From: a virus
Virus record (IMG/VR): IMGVR_UViG_3300042691_021563
Location: 1 to 20,645 of that record
DNA: 20,645 bases
Strand: one strand, 5' to 3'
Shown in pieces: positions 427 through 20,135 of this stretch; positions within the stretch are counted from its first letter, which is position 1, and every line of letters begins with the position of its first letter. A model generated the notes under the pieces. That model was not told the origin of the DNA and made no database searches. It was given only the letters and a program-made list of their open reading frames with translations. The position numbers and the translations under genes are program-made.

Positions 427-2520
427 TTACTTTGATCCCTCGTCTGGGTTTTTAATAGTTGGATTGATTTCTACTGTTGAACTTTTCTTTTTCTTAGCAA
501 CAAGTTTTTGCTCATCAATAATCTTACGAATTATCTCGGCTTGCTTAGTGGCTTTCTTTCTGTTACTATTTGGTCTAGCAACATTCTCAATGCTTTCGCG
601 CTCAGAGTCAGCATCCTCAATCAAACCTCTTGTTTCTTGATAAGAAGAAGTTTGTAGCAACGAACCATAAATTGGGAAGTGCGTAAATGTGCTAACTGGT
701 GCGCTACCGAATGCGCCACCACCGCCGCCAGCTGCTCCACCAAGACCACCAAGAGCACCAAGCAATCTCTTCAACTTGTCTTTTAGTGGTTCTTTTTGTT
801 TTTGTTCTTTAGATTTTTCGTTTTTATTTTGTTTTGTTGTTTTTCCAGATGCATTTGCTGCTGCTAAAGCTGCAGCAGCAGCTGCATTAGGCGCTATAGC
901 AGGAGCAGCAGCTGGTGCTGTAACAGGAGCAGCAGCTGGTGCTGTAACAGGAGCGGCAGCAGGTTGTGATGATGGCTGTTGTGTTGGTCCAATATCTGGG
1001 CGATTTCCAGGTTTTGGAGTAACACTTGGTTTCGGTTTGTCAACAGTTTTTTTATCTGGTGGCGCAACAACTGGCGCAACTGGTGCTGGAGTTGTTACGG
1101 GAGGAGCAACGAATGGTGCTGGTGGACCAGATGGTTGCTTTGCTGGTGGCTTGTTGATCGGATCGTTTGCTGGGGTTTTAGGTTTAAAAGGTTTGTTTGG
1201 ATCAAACGGTTTGAATTCAGGCATTCCTGGAACTTTTGGTGTTTCAGGAGGAGCTTCTGGTTTTGGCGCAGCAGGTTTTGCTGGTGGAGCTTTTCTCCAA
1301 GGAACATCACGCTGAGGAGCGCCTCTTCTTGAAGGGCCAGGACTAACTGGTGCAGGCTTTACAGGCTCAGGAGCTTTCGGTGCAGGTTTTGCTCCTCCAG
1401 CAGTTTTTAATTGTGCTACTGTTGCATTTGAAGGAGTTGTATCTGTTGGTGGCTTGATGCTGACCACGTTTTCTGGAGCAGATGGATGTTGAATTTGTGT
1501 CCCACCACCGCCGCCACCCCCGCCTCCGCGAGGATTTGGAGGTTTTGCTACACCAGCACCACCTTCTGGTGATAGTGGTGTTCTTGCTCCACTTCTAGCT
1601 GAAGAAGTTGAAGCTGTTGAACTTGGTTCTCTTGCTTGTGTGCCGAGAGGTTTACTTCTTACGTTTACGCTTGAACGAGGTTTGCCTGCAAATGGTTGAT
1701 ATTTTAGTTTAGTAGTAGTAACTGGTGGTTCGGTTCCACCAGTCTTTGTTGGCGCAACATCAGTTTTAGGAGCTTCGACCTCAGCAGGTTTAGCTGCTTT
1801 AGGAACTTCAACCTCAGCAGGTTTAGCGGTTGTTGTTTGCTTTGGAACAGGACTCATTACAGCCTGATCTGCTTGTTTTATAACTTTGCTGCCGAATCTT
1901 CCTAAAGCATAACCACCAGCTAAAGGTAAAGCAACGCCTGTTGTAAATTCTTTTGCAGCTTTTTTATATTCGCCTTGTTTAGCTAATGCAGTGCTATCAA
2001 GAGCACTGCCAGCAATATCAGTTGCTCCAAAAGTTAGTGCGCTTGCTGCTTTTGCTATTTTTTCAATTCTTTCTCTTGCTTCTCTACCACCACCATAAAG
2101 TTTTTCTAATTCTGCAGACATGGCTTCTGTTGGCAAAGGTTCTCTACTGGTAAGCTCGCCGCTTGGTTTCATACCAGGAGGCAAATTACCACCAACAACT
2201 TTATCTTTGTCGCTTTTCTTTTTAGAAGTTGTTTCTGAAGCAGGATCCCAAGATTCTCCTTCTTCCTCTTCCTTCTTTTTTGTTTGTTCTTCTAGATTTT
2301 CTTCTTTCTTCATAGTCTCGCTTGAAGAAATTTTGGCACGAGCTCTCTTTGCTAATTCTGTATCAGAGTTAGGATGTTTTTCGCCATTTGGTGGTGTTAT
2401 ACGACCAACAGGTTTTAGAAACGCTGATGGCGTGCCCTTGAACTCATCGGTGTTAGGACCACCAATGCTCTCTGCCAATACTTTTCTGATAGCGTGTTCT
2501 AAACCAATTTTCTTTTCCAT
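427..2520 (-). CDS. Pro/Ala/Lys-rich low-complexity protein, possible internal virion protein
   Basis: This 697-residue protein has no domain I recognise. Residues 1-20 form a short amphipathic segment ending in VLAE before Ser, which would fit a T4-type prohead-protease site. Residues 65-90 are strongly acidic and basic. Residues 145-215 are the only ordered-looking part, with Ala/Gly-rich helices (around ALPLAGGYALGRFG) that could touch a membrane. From about 220 to 600 it is a disordered Pro/Ala/Lys linker with a duplicated AKPAEVE-type unit, a run of nine glycines and a tandem APVTAPAA repeat. The C-terminus is Lys-rich. The ATG overlaps the stop of the Dps-like gene (TAATG) and has GAGG four bases upstream. 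The antisense and shifted frames that are also open here are by-products of the Ala/Gly/Pro codon bias. A head-interior or DNA-associated role is inference only. Confidence 0.8.
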   Translation of the reverse strand: MEKKIGLEHAIRKVLAESIGGPNTDEFKGTPSAFLKPVGRITPPNGEKHPNSDTELAKRARAKISSSETMKKEENLEEQTKKKEEEEGESWDPASETTSKKKSDKDKVVGGNLPPGMKPSGELTSREPLPTEAMSAELEKLYGGGREARERIEKIAKAASALTFGATDIAGSALDSTALAKQGEYKKAAKEFTTGVALPLAGGYALGRFGSKVIKQADQAVMSPVPKQTTTAKPAEVEVPKAAKPAEVEAPKTDVAPTKTGGTEPPVTTTKLKYQPFAGKPRSSVNVRSKPLGTQAREPSSTASTSSARSGARTPLSPEGGAGVAKPPNPRGGGGGGGGGTQIQHPSAPENVVSIKPPTDTTPSNATVAQLKTAGGAKPAPKAPEPVKPAPVSPGPSRRGAPQRDVPWRKAPPAKPAAPKPEAPPETPKVPGMPEFKPFDPNKPFKPKTPANDPINKPPAKQPSGPPAPFVAPPVTTPAPVAPVVAPPDKKTVDKPKPSVTPKPGNRPDIGPTQQPSSQPAAAPVTAPAAAPVTAPAAAPAIAPNAAAAAALAAANASGKTTKQNKNEKSKEQKQKEPLKDKLKRLLGALGGLGGAAGGGGGAFGSAPVSTFTHFPIYGSLLQTSSYQETRGLIEDADSERESIENVARPNSNRKKATKQAEIIRKIIDEQKLVAKKKKSSTVEINPTIKNPDEGSK
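901..960 (-). repeat. 24-bp tandem repeat coding for APVTAPAA
   Basis: Two exact 24-bp copies (901-924 and 925-948) are followed by a 12-base third copy (949-960) with one mismatch. It lies in frame inside the Pro/Ala-rich gene. It encodes an eight-residue unit, so copy-number change by slippage would keep the reading frame. Confidence 0.9.
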
Positions 2521-2978
2521 TAGCCTCTACCTTTTGATATAGCTCTTAGCATCCAACCATGCTTTTCGTGGATGTCAATGCGCTCTTCTAGGAAATTTGT
2601 TATACCTATTTTGTTTGCCTTTTCAGACATGTCATGAGCAGTTACCAACGACTCAAGAACTTTCTTATTATCTTCTTCAAGCTTACGAGCCATGTTAATT
2701 GCTGAAGGGATGTTAGTTTCGTCAGAAATTGTGGCTAACTGATAGAATCTACCAAACGAACCTGGAACATACTCATCGAGTGTACGTATATGCTCAGCGA
2801 TTACATCAGTTGCTGCCCAAGTTTCGTTGTACAAAGTAGCAAAGAATGCGTGATAGTCGTTGAAGTTTTCGCCCTCAACGTTCCAATGATAGTTGTGCGC
2901 CTTTAGATAGAAAGCAAAAGTATTTGCCAAAACCACCTTCAACGAATCTGCTAATGTATTATTCTTTTCTTCAGCCAT
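2520..2978 (-). CDS. dps: Dps-like ferritin-fold protein
   Basis: This 152-residue four-helix protein belongs to the Dps/ferritin-like family, whose members form shells that oxidise and store iron and protect DNA from peroxide. Helix 1 has KAHNYHWNVEG and helix 2 has H-x14-D-x3-E, which align with the E. coli Dps inter-subunit ferroxidase residues H51, H63, D78 and E82. The position of D67 is Ala here. That may weaken iron binding, or may be normal for the phage subfamily. I place the start at the ATG at 2976-2978 (MAEEKN), two bases after the upstream stop. An in-frame ATG at 2993 would add five residues and overlap the upstream gene. It sits in a structural-type block rather than with hsp20 and pstS. 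Its stop overlaps the next ATG. Confidence 0.88.
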   Translation of the reverse strand: MAEEKNNTLADSLKVVLANTFAFYLKAHNYHWNVEGENFNDYHAFFATLYNETWAATDVIAEHIRTLDEYVPGSFGRFYQLATISDETNIPSAINMARKLEEDNKKVLESLVTAHDMSEKANKIGITNFLEERIDIHEKHGWMLRAISKGRG

Positions 2979-2980
2979 AA

Positions 2981-3802
2981 TTAACAATCCCATGCTTTAC
3001 GCGACCAATAGTTGGCGCTTGTTTTATCAGTTAAATTACCTTGACCACCAGAGCGAGCGCAATATGAACGCTTTCTTCCTGGCTGGTCTTTCTTGATTGA
3101 CATATTTTTGTCACCAAAATTCACCTTCTGCGCCTTACCGTCACCATCTGGATCAACGAATACCTTTGACTTCTTAACGTCGCCCTTCATTGGCTTGTTA
3201 AGAGGAACCTTTTTGCCTTTATAAGTAGCCTCAAAAACAACCTTCTTTACTGCTTTCAGCAACGAAGATTGACCTGGAGTATCCTGAGCTAATATGTTTG
3301 TGTATGAAGTAGTGCCTTCAAATCTTGAGCTTGGGTCGTTTTTGTCTTTAGAAACCTTTTCGGCTCCAGTGTATTCCTCTGGTACGCAATTAGGAACCTT
3401 CTTGCCCTTCTTCATCTTCATGCCAATCTGCTTATAACCAGTCCAGCATGGATCAGCTTCTTCGTTCTGAGAGGCTTTTAGGGCTGCATCAGTGGGAGCG
3501 CCTTCCGATCCAGGCTTACGCATGCGTTCGCCAGAGCCAGCAGCAATACGCTTGCGCTTTGCGTGAATGTTGTCCCAAAGACCTCTTTTTTCTAGTAAAT
3601 CTGCGTCGAGTTCGGATGCGAAACCGCCAGCGATGAAAGAATTAACTCGGTCAAACCCAAACTGCTCAGGATTACCATTGAAGGACTCGTCCCACATGTT
3701 GTAACCACGGCGGTAAACTTCTTCTAAAATGCCTGTTGAATGACCTGAAATCTGAGATTTCTTATAGATTGCAAGCTTCTGCTTGTCGTTTAATTCTACC
3801 AT
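2981..3802 (-). CDS. Modular conserved phage protein (DUF5872-like and Cys-ended C-terminal modules)
   Basis: This 273-residue protein is built from short modules that recur in proteins of marine T4-like phages. An N-terminal helical segment (1-70) is followed by the KRGLWDNIHAKRKRI-AGSGERMRKPGS stretch at about 71-100, which resembles DUF5872. Then comes DPCWTGYKQIGMK...VPNCVP (about 117-141). A C-terminal module from about 195 runs VPLNKPM...NFGDKNMSIKKD...YWSRKAWDC, a pattern I know from many marine phage proteins of unknown function. It is very basic, and its Cys, Arg and Lys content suggests nucleic-acid contact or metal binding. The start has AAGGA eight bases upstream. The gene opens the block 3802-1 and lies behind a candidate late promoter. 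The biochemical role is unknown. Confidence 0.82.
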   Translation of the reverse strand: MVELNDKQKLAIYKKSQISGHSTGILEEVYRRGYNMWDESFNGNPEQFGFDRVNSFIAGGFASELDADLLEKRGLWDNIHAKRKRIAAGSGERMRKPGSEGAPTDAALKASQNEEADPCWTGYKQIGMKMKKGKKVPNCVPEEYTGAEKVSKDKNDPSSRFEGTTSYTNILAQDTPGQSSLLKAVKKVVFEATYKGKKVPLNKPMKGDVKKSKVFVDPDGDGKAQKVNFGDKNMSIKKDQPGRKRSYCARSGGQGNLTDKTSANYWSRKAWDC

Positions 3803-13830: not shown

Positions 13831-14101
13831 CGACTATCTCGACTTTTATGTCTGTGATGTAAAACATTGGTTGTCCAATCCAAGGTTTCCAATCTTCCAT
13901 TTCAACGACAATATCAGAACCATAGATAATTTGGTGATGATTTACATGTTTGATGCTGGAGTTTTTCTGTATCTGATCAAGAAACTGTTCAATCGGTACG
14001 CCTTCTCTAGGAGATTGTACGCGTAAACTTTCTTTACCCATGCCATACAATTCATCAGGACGAAAGTTATAACTAGTCGAGTATTCATATCTAATCTTCA
14101 T
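13823..14101 (-). CDS. Small hypothetical protein coupled to the polymerase gene
   Basis: I start this 92-residue protein at the ATG at 14099-14101 (MKIRYEYSTSYNF). It overlaps the polymerase stop as ATGA and has GGAGG nine bases upstream inside the polymerase gene. A longer frame to 14143 lies wholly inside the polymerase and is unlikely. The protein looks beta-rich, with aromatic and acidic residues (IIYGSDIVVEMEDWKPWIG) and no motif I recognise. Tight coupling suggests co-expression with the polymerase. Confidence 0.7.
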   Translation of the reverse strand: MKIRYEYSTSYNFRPDELYGMGKESLRVQSPREGVPIEQFLDQIQKNSSIKHVNHHQIIYGSDIVVEMEDWKPWIGQPMFYITDIKVEIVDG

Positions 14102-16575
14102 GAGAAGAAATCCTCCAATGTTGCTCTGTGTTCTACTTCCCAACCAATCACACTTGTAATTGATTTAACAGGCTCAAGGAACGACTTGTTGAACTGTAGC
14201 TCACGATCAATATACTTATCTAGTCCCAATTCATCGGGCATTTCATCAGGTGTTGCGATGACAGTGTCATTGATTGGATTGGGAACCTTGAGATAAGCAA
14301 ACCTAATCTTATCACCATTCTGAATAGGAGGAATATGGTTAATGTTCTTTTCCTTTAGTAAGTGATTGAACAGCAACGCACCTTTCACATGGATAGGAGT
14401 TCCTTTTACATAAATCGTAGCGGCATCAGCATATCCTTTCGGATCAGCGTCAAGACCCTTAACGCCTCTCGGAAAAGCAACATCCTCGAAAGGCAGAGTC
14501 ATGAACTTAGCTTTGAACTCCTCGATAAACTGAATTAATTCATTTTGATCGCTGTTCATAATTATACCGAACGCTTTCTTAATGTTTTCGCGACAAGCAT
14601 GCGGAGTTGAAGAACGAACCGCCTCGATACCAGACAACTTCAGCTTGGGCTTATCATACTGCACGCCTTCAACGTTCCAAGCATTGAGAATGTACATCTT
14701 CTTACCACGCCAGATACCCTTGTTGGCAATAGTTTCACGCTTCATCTTCATCTTTTGCTGATATGCATTCATCATATCAGCGAGTTCCTGATAACACTTA
14801 TCCATGTAAGGCTGGATTTTATGTTCACAGAACGCATCAATCGCACCAATGATAACATGATCATCATCAATGTTCATAACTTCCTGAACCTTTTCCATTG
14901 TGATGTAAATAGAATCTGTATCAGAAGCGATCACATAATCAACATCCTTAGTTGAGAATGTTTTGTTCATGAACTGATTCATCTTCTTCTCGATCCAACG
15001 AATAGAAAGCTGACCAGACATGGTGATAGCTTCAGCGTGATTGTGATTGAACCAACGGAAATACTGATTACCCAAAGCACCATAAGCAGAGTTTAGCTGA
15101 ATCTTTTTAGCCAACTGCATATTATGGTAACGCGCAACCAACTTAGCATCTTCGTTTGATTTAGTTTCTTCATAACGCTTCTTTGCTTCGAGCATGAGCT
15201 TCTTGTATTCTGCTCGACTGTTATACATCTTCTCCATTAGAGCAGGAAGGAATCCTTGATGTTCCTTGTCATACATACAACCGTTGGCAGCATAAGCAAA
15301 ATCATACAATGCTTTGAACTTTCCCTCAAGCAAAGTGTCGATATTTGGCATACCCGTTGCCTTACCTTTAAAGGTTTCAGGGCTGATATTGTACTGCATA
15401 ATCAGGTGTGGATACAGTGAGTTCAAGTCAAACGACACAACCCACTTACTCAAGCCAATCTTTGGCTCCTTGACGAAACCACCAACCAACGCATCATAAT
15501 CAGGCTGCTTCTTGAACTGAGGAATAACGATGTTCTGTTCGAGAAGATAGTTGTGGATGATAGTATCCCATGAACGCACAGTTGTCATGGTATCAGAATA
15601 GTTTACCTTCGCGTCATAAGCAAGAGCCATAACCTGCTCGAGGAACTTCAGCTTATCGTCAAGCTTCTCGACCAGTACAACGTCTTGAATGTTATACTCA
15701 ATAAACTTTTGATAATCTTTCTTATACAATTCAAGCAGATTACCATACTCTGAGTAGTCAACCTTCTTCTCGCCGAGTTCAATCTGAGCAATGTAATCCA
15801 GCTTATATGACTCTTGGTTGCCGAACATGAACTTACGATACAGCTGATAATAGTCCAGAACTGTTACGCCAACAGGTTCATAGCTCTGGTTCTCTTTACC
15901 TTTGAACTCGACCATTCGCTCATTCAAAATACCCCAAGGCGAAAGCTTCTTCGCTTCAGGCAAACCAAGCAGATTTTTGATACGATTGACCAAGTATGGC
16001 ATATCGAAGAACTCGACGTTCCAACCTGTTATAACATCCATGTCTAGATGCTGCCAAGCAAGCAAAAACTTAGCAAGCAAGTCATGTTCGTTCTTACATC
16101 TCAGGTAACTTGTGCTGGGATCATTGCTGATGAAATGCCCGCAGCCAAACACATAATTTGTGCCTTGGAACCGCAGGGTGATAGCAGTGATTTCTTTATC
16201 TGCTTTCTGAATGTCAGGGAAACCTTCGTCGGCTGCGACCTCGATGTCGATGTTACCGATACGAACTGTTTTTGGGTCGTAGTTAATTTCGCCCTTGAAC
16301 GCATCAAAGATATACAGGTAGGTAAATGCGTTTAAGCCATAAATCTCCATGTTGGAGACATCGCTGTACCTTTCAATAAAATCTTTAGCATCAGAGATGC
16401 TGTCGAACTGCATCTTCTCAACAGCCTTGCCGTCAAGAGTTCTGTACTTACCGCCTTGTTTTTGAATGAACATATAAGGATGGTAGTTTTCGATCAGTTT
16501 CTGGCGCTTACCATTCTTAAACCCACGAACGTAGATCTTATCGCCTCTCTGAAAAACACTTGTATAAAAATCCAA
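14098..16575 (-). CDS. 43: Family B DNA polymerase (T4 gp43 type) with 3'-5' exonuclease; TTG start
   Basis: This 825-residue replicative polymerase has a complete proofreading domain: Exo I IGNIDIEVA (D110, E112), Exo II GWNVEFFDMPY (184-194) and Exo III YNIQDVV (294-300, D298). The palm motifs are also complete: A SFDLNSLYPHL (381-391, D383), B KKIQLNSAYGALGNQ (490-504) and C ASDTDSIYI (550-558, D552 and D554). The C-terminal tail RATLEDFFS resembles the sliding-clamp-binding peptide of gp43-type enzymes. The start codon is TTG (16573-16575), with GGAGG six bases upstream. The encoded MDFYTSVFQRGDKIYVRG matches the usual N-terminus of marine T4-like polymerases, and no in-frame ATG or GTG precedes it with a ribosome site. 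A promoter-like element lies at 16599-16627. Confidence 0.96.
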   Translation of the reverse strand: MDFYTSVFQRGDKIYVRGFKNGKRQKLIENYHPYMFIQKQGGKYRTLDGKAVEKMQFDSISDAKDFIERYSDVSNMEIYGLNAFTYLYIFDAFKGEINYDPKTVRIGNIDIEVAADEGFPDIQKADKEITAITLRFQGTNYVFGCGHFISNDPSTSYLRCKNEHDLLAKFLLAWQHLDMDVITGWNVEFFDMPYLVNRIKNLLGLPEAKKLSPWGILNERMVEFKGKENQSYEPVGVTVLDYYQLYRKFMFGNQESYKLDYIAQIELGEKKVDYSEYGNLLELYKKDYQKFIEYNIQDVVLVEKLDDKLKFLEQVMALAYDAKVNYSDTMTTVRSWDTIIHNYLLEQNIVIPQFKKQPDYDALVGGFVKEPKIGLSKWVVSFDLNSLYPHLIMQYNISPETFKGKATGMPNIDTLLEGKFKALYDFAYAANGCMYDKEHQGFLPALMEKMYNSRAEYKKLMLEAKKRYEETKSNEDAKLVARYHNMQLAKKIQLNSAYGALGNQYFRWFNHNHAEAITMSGQLSIRWIEKKMNQFMNKTFSTKDVDYVIASDTDSIYITMEKVQEVMNIDDDHVIIGAIDAFCEHKIQPYMDKCYQELADMMNAYQQKMKMKRETIANKGIWRGKKMYILNAWNVEGVQYDKPKLKLSGIEAVRSSTPHACRENIKKAFGIIMNSDQNELIQFIEEFKAKFMTLPFEDVAFPRGVKGLDADPKGYADAATIYVKGTPIHVKGALLFNHLLKEKNINHIPPIQNGDKIRFAYLKVPNPINDTVIATPDEMPDELGLDKYIDRELQFNKSFLEPVKSITSVIGWEVEHRATLEDFFS

Positions 16576-16598: not shown

Positions 16599-16627
16599 AG
16601 CATACTACGAAACCGTATAAAAGTAAA
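16599..16627 (-). promoter_or_regulatory. Candidate sigma70-like promoter for the polymerase gene
   Basis: TTTACT (16627-16622) and TATGCT (16604-16599) on the minus strand are spaced by exactly 17 bases, each matching consensus at four of six positions. It begins directly at the base of the pstS terminator stem, so the terminator tail doubles as the -35 region. Confidence 0.45.
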
Positions 16628-16643
16628 GGGGGATTTCTCCCCC
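16628..16643 (-). terminator. Intrinsic terminator after pstS
   Basis: A perfect six-pair stem (GGGGGA/TCCCCC) with a four-base loop lies just after the pstS stop. On the minus strand it is followed by TTTACTTTTATA, an interrupted T-rich tail. Confidence 0.65.
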
Positions 16644-16650
16644 TGCCTGT

Positions 16651-17613
16651 TTATTGTAAACTAATCAAACCTTTTTCGGTCAAGTAACCTTCTTCACCGA
16701 TTGCTTCTTCGCTTTTGTATGCTTCCATAAACTCTTTCAAGTTTGGTATAACATCAAAGTGTTCATTTTTAAAGTAAACAAACAATGGACGAGAGATAGG
16801 ATATTCACCTGCCTTGATTGCATCATACTCAGGAGCAACACCATCAACAGTTGCACCCTTTACGATGTTAAGGCTTTCTTCCAAAAATGAGAAACCGAAA
16901 ATACCAAGAGCATTTGGGTTGTTTTGTAGCTTCTGAATGATCAACGTATCATTCTCACCAGCTTCAATGAATGCACCATCTTCACGCATAGACTTACAGA
17001 TAGACTTTTCTTCATCCTCTGTAACAGTCATGTTGTTGGTCTTGATAGCTTCCTTACATGCCTTTTCCATTACCAATTCAACGAACGAGTCTCTGGTTCC
17101 AGAGGTAGGAGGTGGGCCAAGCACTTCGATCTTACCATCAGGCAACGCAGGATTTACGTCCTTCCATGTTTTGTATGGATTCTCAACAACTTCACCATCA
17201 ATAATTACAAACTTAGCAAGCGCACGATAGATATCGTCCTTAGTCAAGTTCATATCTTCATGTTCCTTTGCCATAGCAAGAACAATAGCATCATAACCAA
17301 TCTTGACTTCTGTTGCAGTTACACCATTTGTCTTACACATCTCAACTTCGCTATCCTTCATTGGACGAGAAGCATTGACAGCATCAGGTGTATCTTCGCC
17401 AGCACCAGCACAGAACAACTTGATACCACCACCTGTACCAGTAGATTCGACAACAGGCGTTGGTGCTCCAGTTGTCTTACCAAAAACTTCTGCTACTGTA
17501 GTTGTAAATGGATATACAGTTGACGAACCTACGATGCGAATTTGATCTCGTAGGGCGAATGCTGGTGTGACAGCTAAACTGAGTGCAACAGCAGCAAGTA
17601 AAAGTTTCTTCAT
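16651..17613 (-). CDS. pstS: PstS phosphate-binding protein (periplasmic)
   Basis: This 320-residue substrate-binding protein delivers phosphate to the PstCAB ABC transporter in the host inner membrane. The start at 17611-17613 has GGAG seven bases upstream; an ATG four codons earlier has no ribosome site. Residues 1-20 are a typical Sec signal peptide ending AFA. Phosphate-binding loops are visible: IVGSSTVYPF (27-36), ASRPM (81-85) and TSGTRDSF (170-177). The TGTGGGIKLFC stretch is also typical of PstS. Three later cysteines could form a disulfide. The gene is full length. No transporter permease or ATPase is present here, so it must serve the host system, as known for pstS carried by marine cyanophages. 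Expression must pass a terminator-like hairpin at 17626-17659. Confidence 0.95.
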   Translation of the reverse strand: MKKLLLAAVALSLAVTPAFALRDQIRIVGSSTVYPFTTTVAEVFGKTTGAPTPVVESTGTGGGIKLFCAGAGEDTPDAVNASRPMKDSEVEMCKTNGVTATEVKIGYDAIVLAMAKEHEDMNLTKDDIYRALAKFVIIDGEVVENPYKTWKDVNPALPDGKIEVLGPPPTSGTRDSFVELVMEKACKEAIKTNNMTVTEDEEKSICKSMREDGAFIEAGENDTLIIQKLQNNPNALGIFGFSFLEESLNIVKGATVDGVAPEYDAIKAGEYPISRPLFVYFKNEHFDVIPNLKEFMEAYKSEEAIGEEGYLTEKGLISLQ

Positions 17614-17625
17614 ACATTTCTCCAT

Positions 17626-17659
17626 AAAAAATTAGCAGGGAGCGTTATTGCCCCCTGCT
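17626..17659 (-). terminator. Strong terminator hairpin abutting the pstS ribosome binding site (possible attenuator)
   Basis: The arms 17634-17643 and 17650-17659 pair over ten bases (one G-U) around a six-base loop. On the minus strand they are followed by AA and six Ts (17631-17626). The T-run ends three bases before the GGAG of pstS, which leaves no room for a separate pstS promoter downstream of the hairpin. Confidence 0.8.
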
Positions 17660-17664
17660 TTTAT

Positions 17665-17712
17665 CTAGCTTTTCAGCCAGTCTGCTTCTTCGTTATTATA
17701 TGGCCACATCAT
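17665..17712 (-). CDS. Possible 15-residue leader peptide
   Basis: The frame MMWPYNNEEADWLKS starts at an ATG that overlaps the DUF1127 stop as ATGA and ends six bases before the hairpin at 17659. Its position immediately before an attenuator-like structure and its translational coupling are suggestive. There is no independent ribosome binding site, and 15 codons can arise by chance. Confidence 0.3.
   Translation of the reverse strand: MMWPYNNEEADWLKS
17695..17700 (-). promoter_or_regulatory. TATAAT hexamer, weak candidate -10 box upstream of the pstS hairpin
   Basis: A perfect TATAAT on the minus strand lies upstream of the hairpin and would give a leader of about 75 nt for pstS. No recognisable -35 box and no extended -10 are present. 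I found no clear PhoB box. Confidence 0.2.
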
Positions 17713-17876
17713 CGTGACTTTCTAGCCATATCCTGACGAACGACATCGTGAATATCAGCGCGATTAATTCCGATGTCTGAAAGTTCGCGATCAGACATGC
17801 GAGTTAGTTGATCAACTGCGTGTCTGTATTCTGCTCTTTTGTGCATTTGTTTTAGAATTGATTTGAAGAATGACAT
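17709..17876 (-). CDS. DUF1127 (YjiS-like) small regulatory protein
   Basis: This 55-residue frame begins MSFFKSILKQMHKRAEYRHA, two bases after the hsp20 stop. Residues 19-45 carry the family pattern: a short helix followed by L-x-R-M-S-D-R-E-L-S-D-I-G-I-N-R-A-D-I (24-42). DUF1127 proteins are small, Arg-rich and abundant in Alphaproteobacteria. Members have been reported to bind RNA (CcaF1 of Rhodobacter) and to affect phosphate and carbon metabolism in Agrobacterium. The length is typical of the short class. The gene lies between hsp20 and pstS, and a short leader-like frame overlaps its stop. No separate promoter is visible, so it is probably co-transcribed with hsp20. The family call rests on a strong motif; its role in the phage is inference. 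Confidence 0.85.
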   Translation of the reverse strand: MSFFKSILKQMHKRAEYRHAVDQLTRMSDRELSDIGINRADIHDVVRQDMARKSR

Positions 17877-17878
17877 TT

Positions 17879-18361
17879 TTATACCTTTTTTGCTGGGACG
17901 CTACTGTCTACGATGTCAATCTTCTTTGGCTTCTTATCCTCAGGGATAATGTTCTCAAGCCAAATCTTCAACATACCGTTGATCAACTCGGCGTTCTTAA
18001 CTTCAACAGTGTCCGCAACAGAAAACTTACGAGTAAATGATCTGTCAGCAATTCCCTTGTAAATGTAAGTAACAGGGTTTGTGGGATCTAGCTGATCCAG
18101 ATTCAAACCACCCTTGATTGTCAGGGTGCTATTTGCGAGTTCGATGTCAATGTTCTGCTTGCCGAAACCAGCGACTGCCATTTCGAGCGCATACTTATTG
18201 TCGTCTACCTTAATGATGTTGTATGGAGGATATCCAGGAATGCCCTTAGTCATGTCTTCGTGAGCTTTAGCAAAAGTTTGGAGTAACTTGTCTGCTCCAA
18301 TAAAGTTCTTGCTGAAATTAGCACCTGGGAAACCGTTAAAAGAAAATACATCGTTAGTCAT
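17879..18361 (-). CDS. hsp20: Small heat-shock protein, Hsp20/IbpA type
   Basis: This 160-residue protein is a full-length alpha-crystallin-domain chaperone that holds unfolding proteins in soluble complexes. The N-terminal arm (1-43) is Phe-rich. PPYNIIKVDDNKYALEMAVAGF (45-66) opens the crystallin domain, and YKGIADRSFTRKFSVADTVEV (101-121) is the IbpA-type loop and core. NGMLKIWLENIIPE (128-141) closes it, and KKIDIVD (146-152) holds the C-terminal I-x-I anchoring motif. AGGAG lies seven bases before the ATG. Hsp20 genes are widespread in T4-like cyanophages. It starts a transcription unit with an operator-like palindrome in its promoter and is followed after two bases by the DUF1127 gene. 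Confidence 0.95.
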   Translation of the reverse strand: MTNDVFSFNGFPGANFSKNFIGADKLLQTFAKAHEDMTKGIPGYPPYNIIKVDDNKYALEMAVAGFGKQNIDIELANSTLTIKGGLNLDQLDPTNPVTYIYKGIADRSFTRKFSVADTVEVKNAELINGMLKIWLENIIPEDKKPKKIDIVDSSVPAKKV

Positions 18362-19487: not shown

Positions 19488-20135
19488 TTAATCCCAGAGT
19501 GAATGATAGTATTTAGCAAAAAGGCGAAGTCCATTCTGACGGCGCTCCCACGCTTTCTTGTGTCCATCAGCGTCAAACACGTGGGTATCGTTCGGACCCT
19601 TTTCCCAACGATAATACGTTTTGCCGTTGATTACTTCAGGAACAGTGATGTTATCAATCACACCAGTGTGGAACTGATCTTCCCAATCGTCGTTGACCTC
19701 ACACTCGAAAGCATGAATCATTTCGTCGATGATATATTCCCAACGCTTGACAGAGTAAGCACGATCCCAATCATGTTCCGTAGGCTCATCGTCATAGATA
19801 GGGTCAACAGGAGCATCCTCACGATCAGTGTGCGGGGTGCCATGCTTCTGTACCTTCAGCAGCTTGAGAGCCGGAAGGATAATGTGCGCCAAAGTATTAT
19901 CCAGACCCCAAACATCATAGTCATCAACACGAACCTTGATCTTACGCTTCATTCGACCAAAAATGCGATTGAAAGTGTAATGGTAGAAGGTGTTGAGCGC
20001 ACCTTCCAGCTTTTCTAGAGCTTTCTCAAAAAACGTGGTAGACTCTTCCCAATCATAGCCATACTTCTTAGTCATATAGCGATCGTGGACACGAGAACGC
20101 CACCATGGAGTATAGGGTCCAATTTTAACGTACAT
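19488..20135 (-). CDS. Conserved T4-like phage protein of unknown function
   Basis: This 215-residue protein opens with MYVKIGPYTPWWRSRVHDRYM. The following segments match a family I have often seen in marine T4-like phages: KIKVRVDDYDVWGLDNTLAHIILPALKLLK, then KHGTPHTDREDAP, KRWEYIIDEMIHAFE and a C-terminal NGLRLFAKYYHSLWD. The composition is aromatic and charged, with no membrane segment and no catalytic motif I can name. It is directly adjacent to the previous gene (TAAATG). The family match is good, but the function is not known to me. Confidence 0.85.
   Translation of the reverse strand: MYVKIGPYTPWWRSRVHDRYMTKKYGYDWEESTTFFEKALEKLEGALNTFYHYTFNRIFGRMKRKIKVRVDDYDVWGLDNTLAHIILPALKLLKVQKHGTPHTDREDAPVDPIYDDEPTEHDWDRAYSVKRWEYIIDEMIHAFECEVNDDWEDQFHTGVIDNITVPEVINGKTYYRWEKGPNDTHVFDADGHKKAWERRQNGLRLFAKYYHSLWD

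Follow-up and report, generated by a model that had tools for sequence, protein, structure and literature searches.

The window analyzed here, a 20,645-base stretch of a virus record, carries on its minus strand a gene for a 55-residue DUF1127 protein between hsp20 and a gene for a PstS-type protein, followed by the gp43 DNA polymerase gene and, beyond it, UvsX and gp41 (Table 1). A preliminary description of the locus had already placed the DUF1127 gene between hsp20 and pstS, and profile searches bore out all three assignments; absent from it were the 14-codon mini-ORF that overlaps the DUF1127 stop and the pre-pstS terminator. The conserved, translationally coupled mini-ORF and the terminator directly 5' of pstS are new here. 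The start codon of gp43 is TTG, as it is in the nearest gp43 relative, L124. Farther along the same strand lies a gene for a ferritin-like protein, probably Dps.

Table 1 Features of the window around the DUF1127 gene, with the ferritin-like gene in the last row
Feature	Position	Strand	Evidence or remark
hsp20	17879..18361	-	PF00011, 56 bits; phrog_432, 120 bits
DUF1127 gene (55 aa; Arg-rich small protein, predicted three-helix)	17709..17876	-	PF06568, 48 bits
Mini-ORF, 14 codons (MWPYNNEEADWLKS, then stop)	17665..17709	-	Start codon shares its first base with the DUF1127 stop (TGATG)
Intrinsic terminator	17624..17659 (17659-17634 plus T-run)	-	10-bp stem and AATTTTTT; immediately before pstS
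pstS (PstS-type PBP_like_2 protein)	16651..17625	-	PF12849, 161 bits
Terminator-like hairpin before gp43	16627..16644	-	Retained in L124, there after DUF1127 without pstS
gp43 (family B DNA polymerase; conserved downstream member of the unit)	14098..16575	-	phrog_262, 1042 bits
Ferritin-like protein	2520..2993	-	PF00210, 80 bits; PHROG label 'DNA binding protein'

The DUF1127 ORF scored 48.0 bits against Pfam PF06568 (E = 1e-12), compared with a gathering cut-off of 23.3 bits, and a six-frame profile search of the window recovered DUF1127 at 47.6 bits with no internal stops. Arg accounts for 8 of the 55 residues (14.5%), and the protein contains the short Arg-rich core of the family, L..LSDREL.DIG..R (QLTRMSDRELSDIGINRADI); residues L24, D29, L32, D34, G36 and R39 are invariant among 15 phage homologs. 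An AlphaFold2 model predicts a helical fold (helices at residues 2-25, 29-34 and 39-54; mean pLDDT of 92), and none of the solved structures compared with this model was a convincing relative. The ribosome-binding site, AAAAAGG, is supplied by the end of hsp20. The window gene is a genuine DUF1127 family member in a phage. Many phage DUF1127 proteins share a C-terminal tail, N-x-N-L-[RK]-[GD]-x-V (L017, L019-L023, L031-L033, L147 and L201), which the window protein does not have.

To identify the neighbors of this gene across viruses, we scanned viral contigs with the DUF1127 protein (58 relatives), with pstS (64 loci) and with gp43 (80 loci), and then profile-searched all loci. DUF1127 was located immediately after hsp20 in ~48 IMG/VR loci (50 rows, in which the window and one contig each appear twice), and gp43 came next in nearly all of them. 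Across these loci and the 64 pstS loci, pstS was part of the hsp20-DUF1127 unit only in the window and in L082. Of the 53 loci selected by gp43 in which hsp20 was visible, 26 contained DUF1127 and none contained pstS. After grouping at 90% gp43 identity, the hsp20-gp43 interval held DUF1127 in 16 of 28 clusters, lacked it in the other 12 and held pstS in 0 of 28. Whole-record searches agreed, with DUF1127 found anywhere in only 1 of 34 pstS-selected records and with 2 of 49 searched records (~47 of them DUF1127 carriers) having a PBP_like_2 gene, in both cases several kilobases from DUF1127 by coordinates; most records are fragments, which makes absence weak for any one of them, while adjacency is directly visible. 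The functional pairing of DUF1127 with pstS that had been suggested earlier was to be given up if the gene was not conserved near pstS in related phages, and such conservation is largely missing: no conserved co-occurrence was detected in loci, whole records or gp43 clusters. The conserved neighbors of DUF1127 are hsp20 and gp43, not pstS, and what recurs is a unit of hsp20, DUF1127 and gp43 with a coupled microprotein. A selective link between DUF1127 and pstS is not supported; most likely, a later insertion happened to place the two side by side at this locus.

Comparison with close relatives suggests how the pair arose. Because the nearest gp43 relatives, L124 (94%) and L125 (91%), have the order hsp20-DUF1127-gp43 without pstS, we infer that pstS and its upstream terminator were probably inserted later, between DUF1127 and the pre-gp43 hairpin; alternatively, pstS could have been lost from L124 and L125. 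About 35 bp beyond the DUF1127 stop, L124 has a hairpin and then gp43, and this hairpin is of the same kind as the one separating the pstS stop from gp43 in the window. Nucleotide similarity between the two ends at 16644 and restarts only at 17905, so DUF1127 itself is too divergent for DNA-level alignment. DUF1127 may likewise have been swapped during the pstS event. The closest pstS, from L060 (95% amino acid and 88% nucleotide identity), sits after hsp20 and a 49-residue DUF3563-like gene, an order present in 50 rows of the profile-searched loci; no DUF1127 stands beside the pstS genes most similar to that of the window (amino acid identity up to 95%). We call these small hsp20-adjacent genes of pstS phages DUF3563-like only, because their best score against PF12086 was 21.6 bits (E = 2e-4), below the cut-off of 26.9. 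In several phages (L037, L047, L082, L169, L171, L174 and L177) DUF1127 and DUF3563-like genes stand side by side, which indicates separate genes sharing one neighborhood. An apparent homology between the two (hhalign, 98%) was rejected as an artifact, given that untrimmed upstream sequence had been aligned, that the match ended before the DIG motif and that the genes coexist.

The likely start of pstS is the ATG at 17613, behind GGAGAAA. The terminator upstream of it (-19.9 kcal/mol, z = -5.3) leaves little space for a promoter before this start, and expression of pstS therefore probably relies on read-through. Equivalent hairpins of 10-12 bp, differing in sequence, precede pstS in the other mini-ORF loci that were folded, and a pre-pstS terminator is also found in related loci without the mini-ORF (for example, L061 and L066).

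The mini-ORF motif, M-x-P-Y-[TN]-x-E-E-[AS]-D-W-L, was found at a length of 14-18 codons in 49 loci, both with and without pstS. In most of these its start sits at the stop of a small gene, overlapping that of DUF1127 in the window, L082 and the L203 group and that of a DUF3563-like gene in 38 loci. Counts of codon differences from loci selected by the motif were set aside owing to the bias of a degenerate pattern, and the recount on pstS-selected loci gave 165 synonymous to 43 non-synonymous single-base differences versus 183:807 under neutrality, a 17-fold synonymous excess among loci related by descent, in which the counts are not independent events. Because synonymous differences exceed the neutral ratio, translation of the mini-ORF and selection on its protein product are very probable. 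A TATAAT-like string within it was discarded as a promoter candidate, as the flanking codons vary mostly at third positions, which fits coding sequence. A cellular origin was left as a lead: one scan of cellular genome contigs yielded two Rhodospirillales matches (L239 and L240), outside annotated-looking long ORFs, and the mini-ORF was present in 1 of 385 class members, namely the query genome itself. An alternative oxidase gene (AOX, PF01786) follows phage DUF1127 and the mini-ORF in L203, L205, L215, L219 and L236. One tentative idea is that the acidic 14- to 18-residue microprotein is co-translated with its basic partner, DUF1127 or DUF3563-like, which it binds or neutralizes, or, alternatively, that the mini-ORF and terminator act as a leader attenuating pstS. 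If the former is true, the two would constitute a new regulatory cassette of two genes that phages put in front of exchangeable metabolic genes such as pstS or alternative oxidase. Standard pipelines would overlook a conserved ORF of 14 codons, which is far shorter than annotation usually allows.

Using tblastn, 38 public phage records matched the window DUF1127, all of them from phages of Alphaproteobacteria (Roseobacter-group, including Siovirus, and Celeribacter, Lentibacter, Ruegeria, Sinorhizobium, Agrobacterium and Ochrobactrum), and none from a cyanophage or enterobacterial phage. Identity was <60% for 36 of the 38, and the remaining two match only about half of the query. Judging from these isolates, the host of the window phage is likely an alphaproteobacterium. 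The statement that no described phage case is known holds for the literature naming both DUF1127 and phage, in the available parts of which we found no description of a phage-encoded member, but not for public records, where CRP-603 has a gene annotated as DUF1127 upstream of its terminase genes. As also anticipated, the gene is easily missed: SIO1 contains an unannotated copy between MazG and ribonucleotide reductase (RNR; L246 2001-2138, corresponding to SIO1 19995-20132). In CRP-403, DUF1127 likewise lies between MazG and RNR.

Cellular members of the family offer several precedents for function. It was shown only recently that small DUF1127 proteins of A. tumefaciens and E. coli bind PhoR and keep pst expression low, and DUF1127 proteins from S. 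meliloti, R. sphaeroides and E. coli complement an A. tumefaciens DUF1127 mutant (PMC12501420); the connection of DUF1127 to phosphate control that had been noted earlier holds for cellular members through PhoR. CcaF1 is an RNA binder (PMC12501420). RNA binding was not seen for Salmonella YjiS and its DIGL motif was dispensable for the infection phenotype (PMC11707872), indicating that function is not readable from the motif. YjiS seems to interact with membrane proteins, SsrA among them (PMC12501420, PMC11707872).

Our preferred interpretation, which we regard as reasonably probable, is that a phage of a T4-like lineage, probably one infecting Alphaproteobacteria, adopted DUF1127, which is tightly linked to hsp20 among the phage replication genes and copies host DUF1127 proteins to retune host regulation. 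The basic helical phage protein would mimic the host's own DUF1127 proteins and may bind acidic or anionic host partners, either sensor kinases such as PhoR or RNA or both, and this binding would retune host regulation during infection with or without a phage pstS, which would have arrived afterwards together with its own terminator. Binding to anionic partners is our best guess because the Arg-rich core and predicted three-helix fold are kept, and a Pho effect is possible in view of the PhoR binding and pst repression by cellular family members.

A narrower and rather doubtful version is that the phage protein mainly binds RNA and alters mRNA stability or sRNA maturation in the manner of CcaF1. 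This would agree with the CcaF1 precedent, with the Arg content and with the corresponding block of cyanophage S-PM2, where hsp20 is immediately preceded by the translation repressor RegA, but not with the report on YjiS. We consider it improbable that DUF1127 and pstS form a functional phosphate module in which the former dampens PhoR together with the pst operon of the host and the phage brings its own PstS. The binding of PhoR and repression of pst by DUF1127 proteins of A. tumefaciens and E. coli make this attractive, the divergent phage L082 has the identical order of DUF1127, mini-ORF and pstS, and no Pho box (CTGTCAT-N4-CTGTCAT, ≤3 mismatches) was found upstream of phage pstS, so the phage gene could escape PhoB, although a divergent box is possible. 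A Pho-regulated phage pstS has been reported in cyanophages. However, the arrangement occurs only twice among the ~48 hsp20-DUF1127 and 64 pstS loci, the two genes rarely share even a whole record, and repression through PhoR would also silence PstCAB of the host, on which a phage PstS depends. It is similarly improbable that the hsp20-adjacent DUF1127 and DUF3563-like proteins assist the phage Hsp20 chaperone as accessory factors instead of regulating the host, as suggested by adjacency to hsp20 in ~100 locus rows (both families together, duplicates included), given that DUF1127 has no adjoining hsp20 in SIO1, CRP-403 or CRP-603.

The family of phage DUF1127 genes found beside hsp20 and the polymerase provides natural tests of whether phages adjust two-component or RNA regulation in their hosts by means of host-derived small proteins. 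The locus also illustrates that a tempting gene pair can arise through a probable late insertion.

Compared with known systems, the window protein resembles the PhoR-interacting DUF1127 proteins of A. tumefaciens in Pfam domain, Arg content, predicted helical fold and small size (PMC12501420); it differs in being phage-borne and in following hsp20 in a replication block, and its binding to PhoR is putative. Among isolated phages, the best match to the window PstS is that of Pelagibacter phage Mosig EXVC030M (47.5% amino acid identity), where pstS is placed differently, away from hsp20 and gp43 and with no annotated DUF1127 neighbor. Roseophages (CRP-603, SIO1, CRP-403 and ICBM1) and rhizobiophages (phiM12) encode small DUF1127 proteins like that of the window, mostly unannotated, but in the records examined their neighborhoods are different (MazG-RNR, terminase or a tRNA region). 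A parallel in gene order is the RegA-Hsp20-GC176-GC177-gp43-UvsX-gp41 block of S-PM2, which matches the window around hsp20, gp43, UvsX and gp41 and has two other small genes in the slot that holds DUF1127 and pstS in the window.
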